A stretch of DNA of 64,000 nt, from NCBI GenBank assembly GCA_022452035.1, contig JAKURV010000010.1, positions 1-64,000 on the forward strand. The letters are read 5' to 3'. This stretch comes from Acidimicrobiales bacterium (GTDB lineage Bacteria > Actinomycetota > Acidimicrobiia > Acidimicrobiales > MedAcidi-G1). The notes beneath the pieces were generated by a model. That model saw only the letters and a list, made by a program, of their open reading frames with translations, searched no databases and had not been told where the DNA came from. The position numbers and the translations under genes were made by a program. The stretch's first letter is position 1, and each line of letters begins with the position of its first letter. Positions 33,671 through 37,912 of the stretch are shown here, piece by piece.

Positions 33671-35290
33671 TCAGGCCGGAGTGTGAAGGATGCCGTAGAC
33701 CAGCGAGTCGACCAGGGCCTGCCAGGAGGCCTCGATGATGTTCTCCGACACCCCGATGGTGGTCCAGGTCCTCTCACCGTTGGTGGTGTCGATGAGCACC
33801 CTGGTCACCGCGGCCGTGCCCTGGCGGGTCTCTAGGACTCGAACCTTGAAGTCAGTCAGGTGCAGGCGGTCCAGCTGGGGGAACCTGCCCTCCAGGACTG
33901 AGCGCAGGGCAGCGTCCAGGGCGTTGACCGGGCCATTTCCCCGGCCGGTGGCCTCCAACCGCTCGTCGCCCACCTGGACCTTCACCGTGGCCTCGGTCTC
34001 AACCTCGACGGCCACCTCGTTCCACGCCCGGCTGCCACTTCCCGACCGGTGGCCCACGTTGACCGAGAAGGACTCCAGGGTGAAGTAGTCCTGGGTCCAG
34101 CCGGCAGCGGCCCGCATCAGGAGCTCTAGGGAGGCGTCGGCCACCTCGAAGTGGTAGCCGGCGTACTCCAGTTCCTTGAGGGTCTCCACAATCTCACCCA
34201 AGGTGTCGCCGTCCATCTCGATCCCCAACTGGTCGGCCTTCAACTCAATGGTGGACCGCCCCGACATCTCCGAGACCAGGAAGCGAGTGCCGTTGCCAAC
34301 CGACTCCGGATCTACGTGCTCGTAGGCATCGCGACGTCGGGCGATGGCGCTGGTATGAAGACCCGCCTTATGAGCGAACGCCGTGGTCCCCACGTAGGGC
34401 TGCTGGGGATCAGCCGCAAAATTGACCAGCTCGGCCACGTGGTGGGCCACCGGCGTCAGTTTGGCCAAGCGGCCCTCGGGCAGCGTCTCCACGCCCATCT
34501 TGAGGCTGAGGTTGGCCACGATGGGCACCAGGTCGCAGTTGCCGACCCGCTCGCCGTAACCGTTGATGGTCCCCTGAACCTGCGTGGCTCCAGCGGCCAC
34601 GCCGGCCAGGGCGTTGGCCACCCCGCAGCCGGTGTCGTTGTGGAGGTGCACACCGACCTCACAGTCCACGGCAGACACCACGTCGCGGACCGTGGCCCCC
34701 ACCTGGTCGGGCAGAGAGCCGCCGTTCGTATCGCACAGCACGAGGCAGTCGGCGCCTGCCTCGGCAGCCCCCTGTAGGACCTGCATGGAGAATTCCGGGT
34801 TGTCGCGGTAGCCGTCGAAGAAGTGCTCGGCGTCGAAGAACACCCGACGACCACGGGACTTCAAGAAGCGGACGGAGTCGGCCACCATGGCTACGCCCTC
34901 GTCGAGGCTGGTCCGCAGGGCCTCTGTCACGTGGTATGCCGAGGCCTTGCCAACGATGCACACCACGTCGGTCTCGGCGGCCAGAAGGTTGGCCAGCGTG
35001 GCGTCCTCGGCGGCGTCGCCACCCACCCGCCGGGTGGACCCGAAGGCCACCAGGGTGGACCGCTCGAGGGCCAGCTCGGTACGGGCCCGGGTGAAGAACT
35101 CCTCGTCCTTGGGGTTGGCTCCCGGCCAGCCCCCTTCGATGTAGTGAACGCCGAGGCGGTCGAGCTGCTCGGCGATGCGCAGCTTGTCGTCGACGGTCAG
35201 AGAAATTCCCTCTAACTGGGCGCCGTCGCGCAGCGTGGTGTCGTAAATCTCGACAGCGGCCGGCAGCCCGGTGGCGTCAGGCGCTGACAT
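33671..35290 (-). CDS. cimA: (R)-citramalate synthase
   Basis: 539 aa, ATG start overlapping the ilvE stop by 14 nt. Condenses pyruvate and acetyl-CoA to citramalate, the threonine-independent entry to isoleucine. IYDTTLRDGAQLEGISL starts the HMGL barrel, HLHNDTGCGVANAL carries metal-binding His residues, and the C-terminal ~130 residues are the LeuA_dimer allosteric domain. Length and the GGWPGANPKD segment fit the CimA branch rather than 2-isopropylmalate synthase. Confidence 0.95.
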   Translation of the reverse strand: MSAPDATGLPAAVEIYDTTLRDGAQLEGISLTVDDKLRIAEQLDRLGVHYIEGGWPGANPKDEEFFTRARTELALERSTLVAFGSTRRVGGDAAEDATLANLLAAETDVVCIVGKASAYHVTEALRTSLDEGVAMVADSVRFLKSRGRRVFFDAEHFFDGYRDNPEFSMQVLQGAAEAGADCLVLCDTNGGSLPDQVGATVRDVVSAVDCEVGVHLHNDTGCGVANALAGVAAGATQVQGTINGYGERVGNCDLVPIVANLSLKMGVETLPEGRLAKLTPVAHHVAELVNFAADPQQPYVGTTAFAHKAGLHTSAIARRRDAYEHVDPESVGNGTRFLVSEMSGRSTIELKADQLGIEMDGDTLGEIVETLKELEYAGYHFEVADASLELLMRAAAGWTQDYFTLESFSVNVGHRSGSGSRAWNEVAVEVETEATVKVQVGDERLEATGRGNGPVNALDAALRSVLEGRFPQLDRLHLTDFKVRVLETRQGTAAVTRVLIDTTNGERTWTTIGVSENIIEASWQALVDSLVYGILHTPA

Positions 35291-36197
35291 GCTCGTTCCA
35301 CCCCGCGTACTCGGGACGTTCCCCGCGAACGGCCTGGAAGAAAACCTCTTGGACCTGGCGTGTGACGGGGCCGGGGTCGCCTATGACCCGGTCGTCGACC
35401 GACCGGATGGGCACCACTTCGGCGGCCGTCCCAGACAGGAACGCCTCGTCGGCCGTGTAGAGGTCGCTGCGCAGGATGTTGCCCTGCTCGTATGGGATCC
35501 CGAGGTCACTGGCGATGCAGCGCACCGAGTCCTGGGTGATGCCCTCCAGGGCTCCGGCGCTGGCCGGCGGGGTAACGATGGTGCCGTCGCGAACCACGAA
35601 CAGGTTCTCGCCGGTGCATTCGGACACGTGGCCCTGGGGCGACAGCAGGATGGCCTCGTCATAGCCGGCCTTGACGGCCTGGACCTTGGCCATCTGCGAG
35701 TTGATGTAGTGACCACACCCCTTGGCGGCGGGCGGCATGGAGTTTGGGTCGTGGCGCTGCCACGACGAGATCATCATGTCCACGCCCTCGGCGATTCCCT
35801 CTTCGCCGAGGTAGGACCCCCACGGCCAGCTTGCAATGGAGACGTCGACGGTGCACGAGAGGGGGTTGAGGCCCATCTCGCCGTAGCCGAGGTACACGAG
35901 CGGCCGGATGTAGCAGGACTGGTGCCCGTTTGCCCGGACGGTGTCCAGCGTGGCGGTGACCAGGTCGTCGACGGTGTACGGGATCTCGAGGAACAGGATC
36001 TTGGCCGAGCGGAAGAGGCGCTCGATGTGATCGCGGAGACGGAACACGGCCGGCCCGTTAGCCGTCTCGTAGGCGCGAATGCCCTCGAACACACCGTTGC
36101 CGTAGTGCAGAGTGTGGGTAAGTACGTGGATCGTGGCGTCGCCCCAGTCGACAAGCTCCCCATTCATCCAGATCTTGGACGATTCCTGGATCGGCAT
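35277..36197 (-). CDS. ilvE: Branched-chain amino acid aminotransferase
   Basis: 306 aa, ATG start. A fold-type IV PLP enzyme for the last step of Ile, Leu and Val synthesis. THTLHYGNGVFEGIRAY begins the N-domain; INSQMAKVQAVKAGYDEAIL carries the PLP Lys; VSECTGENLFVV and LSGTAAEVVPI are the cofactor-phosphate motifs. It sits between leuB (42 bp upstream) and cimA (overlapping). Confidence 0.96.
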   Translation of the reverse strand: MPIQESSKIWMNGELVDWGDATIHVLTHTLHYGNGVFEGIRAYETANGPAVFRLRDHIERLFRSAKILFLEIPYTVDDLVTATLDTVRANGHQSCYIRPLVYLGYGEMGLNPLSCTVDVSIASWPWGSYLGEEGIAEGVDMMISSWQRHDPNSMPPAAKGCGHYINSQMAKVQAVKAGYDEAILLSPQGHVSECTGENLFVVRDGTIVTPPASAGALEGITQDSVRCIASDLGIPYEQGNILRSDLYTADEAFLSGTAAEVVPIRSVDDRVIGDPGPVTRQVQEVFFQAVRGERPEYAGWNEHVSA

Positions 36198-36239: not shown

Positions 36240-37220
36240 TCAGGCCACCAGAGCGGCGACAGCGTCGCCGATGGCCTTCGTGCCCTCGACCTCGGTGGAC
36301 GGGTCAGCACAGGCCGCCTCCACCCTGGCTGCGGCGTCGGACTCCCCGAGGAAGTCCAGCATCATCGCCCCCGACAGGATGGCCGCCTTGGGGTTAGCGA
36401 TGCCCTGTCCAGCGATGTCGGGCGCCGAGCCGTGGACCGGCTCGAACATGGACGGGCCGGTCCGGTCGGGGTTCAGGTTGGCCGAGGAGGCCAGCCCGAT
36501 GCCACCCGACACGGCGCCGCCCAGATCGGTGAGGATGTCCCCGAACAGGTTGTCGGTAACGATGACGTCGTACTGCTGGGGTGAATGCACGAAGTAGATG
36601 CAGGCGGCGTCGACGTGGTTGTAAGCCGTCTCGACCTCAGGGTATTCGGCGGCTACCTCGTTAAAGGTGCGCTCCCAGAGGTCGCCAGCGAAGGTCAGCA
36701 CGTTGGTCTTGTGGACCAGGGTGAGGTGCTTCCGGCGAGTCATGGCTAGCTCGAACGAGTAGCGGACGGCCCGCTCTACGCCGTGGCGCGTGTTGACCGA
36801 TCCCTGGGTGGCGATCTCGAACGGCGTACCCCGGCGGAGGAACCCGCCCTCGCCGGCGTAGGTGCCTTCGGTGTTTTCGCGCACCACCCGGAAGTCGATG
36901 TCGTCGGCCGGGTACACGAAGGGCCGGAGGTTCACGTAGAGGTCCAGGGCGAAACGCATCTTCAGTAGGAGGCCCCGCTCGATCACCCCGGGCGGCACCT
37001 CCGGCGTGCCGACGGCCCCGAGGTAGAGGGCGTCGAGGTCCCGCCACTCCTCCAGGACCTCGTCGGGCAGCACCGTGCCGTCGCGTCCGTAGCGGGCGCC
37101 CCCAAGGTCGTAGTCGACCGTCTCGAGAGACACCCCGGCCGCGTCAATGACCTTGAGGCCCTCGGCGATGACCTCTGGGCCGATGCCGTCGCCGCCGATG
37201 ATGCCGATCCGATGGGTCAC
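36240..37220 (-). CDS. leuB: 3-isopropylmalate dehydrogenase
   Basis: 326 aa from GTG 37220, supported by AGGAG about 10 nt upstream. Oxidatively decarboxylates 3-isopropylmalate and also 3-methylmalate in the citramalate route, so it serves both Leu and Ile. [17 protein letters not shown], the substrate Arg segment and [25 protein letters not shown] are conserved. First structural gene after the leader-peptide attenuator. Confidence 0.95.
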
Positions 37221-37252
37221 GACTCTGGTCTCCTGGGAAATGGGTGGGGAAC

Positions 37253-37280
37253 AAAAAAACCGCCCACCGAGGTGGACGGT
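37253..37280 (-). terminator. Attenuator terminator upstream of leuB
   Basis: On the minus strand ACCGTCCACC and GGTGGGCGGT pair (10 bp, one G-U), with the last stem base leading into a run of seven T. A textbook intrinsic terminator lying before, not after, the operon. Its GGGCGG can instead pair with CCGCCC in the loop region of the preceding hairpin, a possible antiterminator. Confidence 0.8.
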
Positions 37281-37283
37281 TGG

Positions 37284-37306
37284 GCGCACACCGGGCGGGT
37301 GTGCGC
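37284..37306 (-). promoter_or_regulatory. Pause-type hairpin after the leader peptide
   Basis: GCGCACACC and GGTGTGCGC pair perfectly over 9 bp with loop CGCCC. The 5' arm begins at the last base of the leader stop codon, within reach of a ribosome stalled on the Ile codons. Confidence 0.75.
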
Positions 37307-37341
37307 TAGCAAATGATGATCACCTGGTGCCGGAATTCCAC
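37306..37341 (-). CDS. Leader peptide [11 protein letters not shown] of the leuB-ilvE-cimA operon
   Basis: An 11-codon ORF: GTG start at 37341, TAG stop at 37306. Four of its last five codons are Val-Ile-Ile-Ile (GTG ATC ATC ATT), then Cys. The start lies six bases after -10 TACACT, so it is probably translated from a leaderless transcript, as reported for other actinobacterial amino acid leaders. Ribosome stalling on the Ile codons would decide between the following hairpins. Too short for ordinary gene finding. Confidence 0.75.
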
Positions 37342-37347
37342 CGAGCA

Positions 37348-37378
37348 AGTGTACCAAGCACCCTGAGACGCTGGTCAA
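37348..37378 (-). promoter_or_regulatory. Promoter of the branched-chain operon: TTGACC-19-TACACT
   Basis: -35 TTGACC (37373-37378), 19-bp spacer, -10 TACACT (37348-37353), then six bases to the leader GTG. The best -35/-10 pair seen in the window. Confidence 0.7.
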
Positions 37379-37429: not shown

Positions 37430-37435
37430 TACCCT
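37430..37435 (+). promoter_or_regulatory. -10 TACCCT for greA
   Basis: Six-base gap (CAGGGT) to ATG 37442; divergent from the leu leader promoter. Confidence 0.55.
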
Positions 37436-37441
37436 CAGGGT

Positions 37442-37912
37442 ATGGCTGACGTACAGCAGTTCTCCCAGGAGGCCCACGACCGGCTCGTCGCCGAGTTGGA
37501 GGACCTCACCACTCGGGGGCGTATCGACCTCGCCCGCAAGATTGAGGTGGCCCGTGAACTCGGCGACCTGTCCGAGAACGGCGACTATCACGCGGCCAAG
37601 GAGGAGAAGGGAAAGATGGAGGGCCGGATCCTCCACCTCGAGAGCCTCCTGGAGAAGGCCGAGATCGTGGAACAGGTCAAGACCTCCGACGTGGTTGCCC
37701 CCGGAACGGTGGTGGCTGTGGTCTACGACGGAGACGACGAGCCGGAGCGGATGCTGGTCGGCTCCATCGAGGAGCAGCGCGACGATGTGGGTGTGGTGTC
37801 CCCCGGGTCCCCGCTTGGCGAGGCGCTGCTGGGTGCGACGGTGGGCGACACGGTGTCCTTTGAGGCGCCGAGCGGCTCGCTCTCCGTCAGGATCGTCGCT
37901 ATCGAGCGGTGA
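37442..37912 (+). CDS. greA: Transcript cleavage factor GreA
   Basis: 156 aa, ATG start. Rescues backtracked RNA polymerase by stimulating transcript cleavage. N-terminal coiled coil with the acidic tip LGDLSENGDYHAAKEE (the two catalytic acidic residues lie here) and C-terminal FKBP-like domain (VVSPGSPLGEALLGATVGDTVSFEAPSG). Its stop overlaps a further small ORF. Confidence 0.96.
   Translation: MADVQQFSQEAHDRLVAELEDLTTRGRIDLARKIEVARELGDLSENGDYHAAKEEKGKMEGRILHLESLLEKAEIVEQVKTSDVVAPGTVVAVVYDGDDEPERMLVGSIEEQRDDVGVVSPGSPLGEALLGATVGDTVSFEAPSGSLSVRIVAIER

Follow-up and report, generated by a model that had tools for sequence, protein, structure and literature searches.

In Streptomyces lividans, leaderless leader peptides were reported for ilvL, leuL and trpL, where control codons and hairpins lie before biosynthetic operons (PMC8079986). 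In another member of the Actinobacteria, Mycobacterium tuberculosis, the ilvB1NC attenuator was described as a ribosome-mediated choice between terminator and antiterminator, with branched-chain codons (LVVI) in its leader (PMC13236596). Leaderless Cys-rich short ORFs are found in mycobacteria (PMC4633059), and such poly-Cys ORFs are reported to act as attenuators that answer a single amino acid (Canestrari 2020, as cited in PMC13236596). The ilvB-II motif of Corynebacterium consists of an upstream ORF (uORF) rich in branched-chain amino acids and two hairpins, the second of which is a terminator (PMC10272879). Control codons in a leader do not in themselves prove attenuation, since altered codons in the ilvB leader of S. 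coelicolor left regulation unaffected, as reported in PMC1262725. The leaderless leader peptide, which the initial annotation of the locus described here had regarded as perhaps undescribed, therefore has precedents in S. lividans and in mycobacteria.

The present locus lies in a 64,000-nucleotide stretch of contig JAKURV010000010.1 from an Acidimicrobiales bacterium, and this whole stretch is referred to as the window. The attenuator parts sit between leuB, on the minus strand, and the divergent greA (plus strand, start 37442). The names leuB, ilvE and cimA come from profile searches in which each gene scored above the cut-off of the matching family. The sequence statements of the initial annotation were checked base by base on the minus strand and all of them hold. 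The features are as follows.

37373..37378, minus strand: -35 element TTGACC, read directly; most relatives have a TTGAC-type hexamer in the same place
37348..37353, minus strand: -10 element TACACT, 19 nt past the -35 element; TA-N3-T is retained in most relatives
Between TACACT and GTG, minus strand: promoter-to-ORF gap TGCTCG, 6 nt, read directly
37306..37341, minus strand: leader peptide ORF of 11 codons, GTG start at 37341-37339 and TAG stop at 37308-37306
37312..37323, minus strand: control codons GTG ATC ATC ATT (Val-Ile-Ile-Ile), the final one at position -2 from the stop
37284..37306, minus strand: hairpin 1, 9 bp, GCGCACACC (37306-37298) and GGTGTGCGC (37292-37284)
37281-37258, minus strand: intrinsic terminator AACCGTCCAC-CTCG-GTGGGCGGTT, 10-bp stem with CTCG loop
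37259-37253, minus strand: T-run of the terminator (terminator and T-run together, 37253..37281)
37228..37232, minus strand: AGGAG ribosome-binding site of leuB
36240..37220, minus strand: leuB, 3-isopropylmalate dehydrogenase, GTG start 37220 (NF002898, above cut-off)
35277..36197, minus strand: ilvE, branched-chain aminotransferase (TIGR01122, above cut-off)
33671..35290, minus strand: cimA, citramalate synthase (TIGR00977, E 7e-196, above cut-off)

CimA makes the committed step of the citramalate route, in which LeuB also acts. LeuB makes leucine as well, and ilvE and leuB together serve valine and leucine synthesis. In the genome of this species, which is 96% complete, no gene reached the family cut-off for threonine deaminase; citramalate is therefore probably its only route to isoleucine.

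The arrangement is best read as a ribosome-mediated transcription attenuator that would sense charged tRNA-Ile and control the citramalate route encoded by leuB-ilvE-cimA, a reading to which we assign a probability of about 85% on sequence evidence. RNA polymerase would start at or beside the GTG at 37341, and ribosomes would load on the leaderless 11-codon ORF. When isoleucine is ample, the ribosome would clear ATC-ATC-ATT, terminate at TAG and leave; hairpin 1 and the terminator would then form, and transcription would end ahead of leuB. When Ile-tRNA is scarce, the ribosome would wait with the -2 Ile codon in its A site and shield the 5' half of hairpin 1, which would release the 3' arm, GGTGTGCG. 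Pairing of this arm with the terminator's 5' arm, CGTCCACC, would permit read-through, a step for which partition-function calculations give support in this species.

The leader RNA folds better than 200 of 200 shuffled sequences (z -3.5). Hairpin 1 starts at the stop codon, its first G being the G of that codon, and thus lies outside the control codons. In the alignment of relatives, 4 of its 8 counted pairs show changes on both sides and 96% of cells are paired; when both helices are taken together, 98% of cells pair, a proportion that no shuffle or slid control reached. The terminator shows almost no variation, and its intrinsic form with a T-run is retained throughout. The proposed antiterminator (2:3 pairing) joins the 3' arm of hairpin 1 to the 5' arm of the terminator by 7 pairs around a mismatch. 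This pairing is possible in 91% of cells, against 33-64% in slid controls, and its columns hardly vary. The covariation analysis suggested by the initial annotation revealed compensatory changes in hairpin 1 and was uninformative on the antiterminator. Folding energy was tried as further support for the 2:3 pairing and set aside, since its contribution was modest and the pairing was no more stable than in shuffles (mean z +0.2). The predicted antiterminator is the weakest part of the attenuator reading, being short and thermodynamically convincing here but in few relatives. In an Rfam search with gathering and relaxed thresholds, no family, T-box and riboswitches included, reached its gathering score at the leader.

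One base of the terminator was also recorded. The U of CCGUCCAC in terminator arm 3, at 37276 (CCGTCCAC), is invariant in 44 leaders, and its partner in the terminator is G (37 leaders) or A (7 leaders). A C in its place would pair better with G, both in the terminator and in the proposed antiterminator.

In the masking calculations the ribosome was modelled as covering the RNA about 12 nt beyond the A-site codon, so that a stall at -2 masks RNA up to +8; this agrees in size with the 26-nt footprint used for the M. tuberculosis ilvB1 leader (PMC13236596). For this species, the partition function kept the terminator at a probability of 1.0 both on ribosome-free RNA and under a stall at -4; the value was 0.94 for a ribosome on the stop codon and fell to 0.11 for a stall at -2. 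Only under the -2 stall did the antiterminator appear in the minimum-energy fold. A ribosome further upstream leaves hairpin 1 undisturbed because this hairpin begins at the stop codon, which offers an explanation of why Ile at -2 hardly varies. The same result counts against the attenuator model in one respect, as ribosomes stalled at -4, the first Ile codon, would leave hairpin 1 intact and the common Ile at -4 is unaccounted for. A ribosome that lingers at the stop codon likewise occupies the 5' arm, and fast release must therefore be assumed. In the relatives, the mean terminator probability under the -2 mask was 0.89 at equilibrium; the terminator still won in most of them and the fold switched in few, so that the model has to argue from kinetics in these cases. 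In the interval before arm 4 is synthesised, the -2 stall raised the fraction of terminator arm 3 paired with upstream RNA from 0.06 to 0.57, and a kinetic switch in the relatives is plausible on this modelling.

It is the read-out that leaves the most room for an alternative. Access of Rho, pausing of RNA polymerase at hairpin 1 or an unidentified factor might take the place of the 2:3 antiterminator; the weakness of the antiterminator in most relatives and the invariant arm-3 U, which neither hairpin needs, would suit such a mechanism. We nevertheless consider it unlikely, though it retains a real share of the probability, since the T-run intrinsic terminator is retained throughout and, in this species, masking at -2 is enough to change the predicted fold.

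The identity of the amino acid sensed was approached through two sets of leaders. In a codon-blind set, collected by the hairpin and stop pattern alone, Ile occupied -2 in 55 of 55 unique leaders with synonymous variation between ATT and ATC, which indicates conservation of the amino acid itself. In the larger set, Ile stood at -2 in 143 of 147 leuB leaders and in all 32 cimA leaders. The cimA leaders contain runs of three or four Ile codons, and the ilvB leaders contain Val and Leu with some Ile. Over codons -2 to -5, Ile made up 90% in cimA, 54% in leuB and 18% in ilvB leaders, and Val plus Leu reached 71% in the last. Fisher tests of Ile versus Val plus Leu at these positions gave 1e-24 for cimA against ilvB leaders and 4e-9 for leuB against ilvB leaders, values that are only a guide for sequences related by descent. 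The covariance model was trained on Ile-rich leuB leaders and the larger set is biased toward Ile accordingly, so the Val and Leu codons of the ilvB leaders are more telling. The ilvB gene of the same genome, on another contig, has a leader of its own, MRPFPTSPTPEVAVLP, with Val and Leu codons (L308). This ORF appears to be leaderless, its ATG being placed at a promoter-like site, and it has a hairpin at its stop codon, with a terminator as well; model R1 missed it. The importance of isoleucine claimed by the initial annotation is strengthened by these comparisons, in which the codon two before the stop is nearly invariant and codon identity tracks the downstream gene.

A broader signal has also to be weighed, in which the leader ORF senses translation generally or more than one branched-chain amino acid (Val as well as Ile) instead of Ile specifically. 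Val is found at -5 in 91 and at -4 in 40 of the 147 leuB leaders, and ilvE and leuB have a part in Val and Leu synthesis too. This explanation is improbable, as leuB and cimA leaders almost always have Ile at -2, Val and Leu dominate only before ilvB, and Leu is nearly absent from the leuB leaders although leuB makes leucine.

Codon usage at -2 shows a further feature. The Ile codon there is ATT in 118 of 143 leuB and 22 of 32 cimA leaders, and ATC prevails at -4; for comparison, ATT accounts for 13 of the 114 Ile codons in eight genes of the window. The preference could reflect a slower codon or a constraint on the bases.

Isoleucine sensing by this attenuator would begin on a leaderless ORF. 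The leader GTG lies at the predicted +1, 6 nt past the -10 element, and no Shine-Dalgarno site is visible before it, unlike the situation at leuB. The pattern TTGAC-N18..20-TANNNT-N5..8-RTG occurs once in the window, at the leader, against 0.09 expected by chance. In relatives, the start codon is mostly 6-9 nt past a TANNNT-type -10 element and the intervening bases are variable, although the gap statistic is partly circular, since these start codons were chosen with the promoter in the score. The promoter geometry and its conservation fit transcription starting at the leader start codon. That circularity would leave some room for transcription from further upstream and a longer 5' UTR, which is quite improbable given the TTGAC-N17..20-TANNNT arrangement 6-9 nt ahead of an in-frame start in most leaders, with varying bases between, and the missing Shine-Dalgarno site.

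Other gene starts have a similar appearance. The greA gene likewise looks leaderless, with TACCCT, six bases and ATG at 37430-37442 on the plus strand, and the opposite-strand AGGGTA is kept in relatives. In several relatives without a leader before leuB (L071, L085, L095), a -10-like site is present a few bases before leuB begins, which would suit a leaderless leuB there.

The distribution of the attenuator was surveyed with a covariance model built from 44 leuB leaders, which matched 217 of 395 genomes sampled from the class and 130 of 184 genera. Relatives that carry a name are for the most part listed as Acidimicrobiales or Acidimicrobiia. The leader anatomy pointed out in the initial annotation, namely Ile codons, both hairpins and leaderless geometry, is conserved among relatives. 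Every genus mate whose upstream DNA was compared keeps the module; within the family, the element has apparently been lost in one genus, being absent at 5 loci. This conservation, in genus mates and in 217 of the 395 class genomes, is the decisive test that the module is not chance. An ORF arisen by chance ahead of an ordinary terminator between greA and leuB can thus be dismissed: 11-codon ORFs are frequent by chance, but class-wide conservation, the matching of codons to genes and covariation refute it.

Downstream DNA was available for 152 model matches, and translated comparison placed 103 before leuB, 32 before cimA, 15 before ilvB and 2 before none of these, so that 150 of the 152 precede one of the three genes. 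Among 79 named leuB loci, the element is before leuB in 31 and lies 2-3.7 kb downstream of the leuB start in 14. In one of these 14 (L062), the leader comes after leuB, ilvE and a gene on the opposite strand, in that order, and leader types like those of the 14 loci precede cimA in sampled genomes. The attenuator is thus located at cimA where cimA is apart from leuB, which indicates that the element accompanies cimA. Matches outside the class came from few genomes; of the leaders found there, several are before ilvB and one is before leuB. Weak matches in large genomes outside the class (L216, L218, L225) have no such leader ORF and were taken as chance. In another class (L212-L217), ilvB leaders with the same TAGCGC-type hairpin and Val, Leu and Ile codons before the stop were observed, some of them several hundred bases upstream of ilvB.

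A more general proposal can be put forward only tentatively, the odds being somewhat against it: the attenuator may be a portable class-wide scaffold in which only the -2 codon is mechanically coupled, in which a codon swap retargets control between Ile (cimA, leuB) and Val or Leu (ilvB), and which is present wherever cimA has a promoter. What the locus offers is a predicted circuit by which a large class of Actinobacteria, mostly uncultured, would regulate the synthesis of isoleucine through citramalate. It is also a compact natural test of how ribosome stalling on a leaderless ORF is coupled to a terminator. Predictions at the level of single codons, which a simple reporter could test, follow from the near-invariance of the -2 codon and from the exchange of codons between cimA and ilvB leaders.

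The literature searched appears to contain no description of the citramalate target, of the spread through the class or of the fixed position of Ile, and these, together with the codon swap, are the parts worth following. No pairing of citramalate with a leader-peptide attenuator of this kind was found in that literature, judged by titles and abstracts and with subscription papers mostly outside its scope. The abstract and the sections consulted of a comparative study of Actinobacteria list trp, cys, ilvB, leuA and some synthetase genes, and no cimA or leuB operon (PMC1262725). The S. lividans leaders act on ilvBHC, leuA, leuS, trpE and trpS and on no citramalate gene, and IlvL (MRTRILVLGKRVG) is without an Ile codon two before the stop, unlike the leader here (PMC8079986). 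In M. tuberculosis the target is ilvB1NC and no citramalate operon, and a leader sequence of 166 nt precedes ilvB1 (PMC13236596). The mycobacterial poly-Cys ORFs differ in responding to cysteine, and comparative analysis found no conserved terminator hairpin upstream of cys operons, unlike the present locus (PMC1262725). In the ilvB-II motif the uORF spans most of P1 and the target is ilvBNC, whereas hairpin 1 here begins at the stop (PMC10272879). The overall logic is shared with E. coli trpL, which was folded as a yardstick. E. coli trpL is not leaderless. Its Trp codons (-15 and -12 from the stop) are located inside the 5' arm of the 1:2 hairpin, whereas the control codons of the present leader lie outside hairpin 1.
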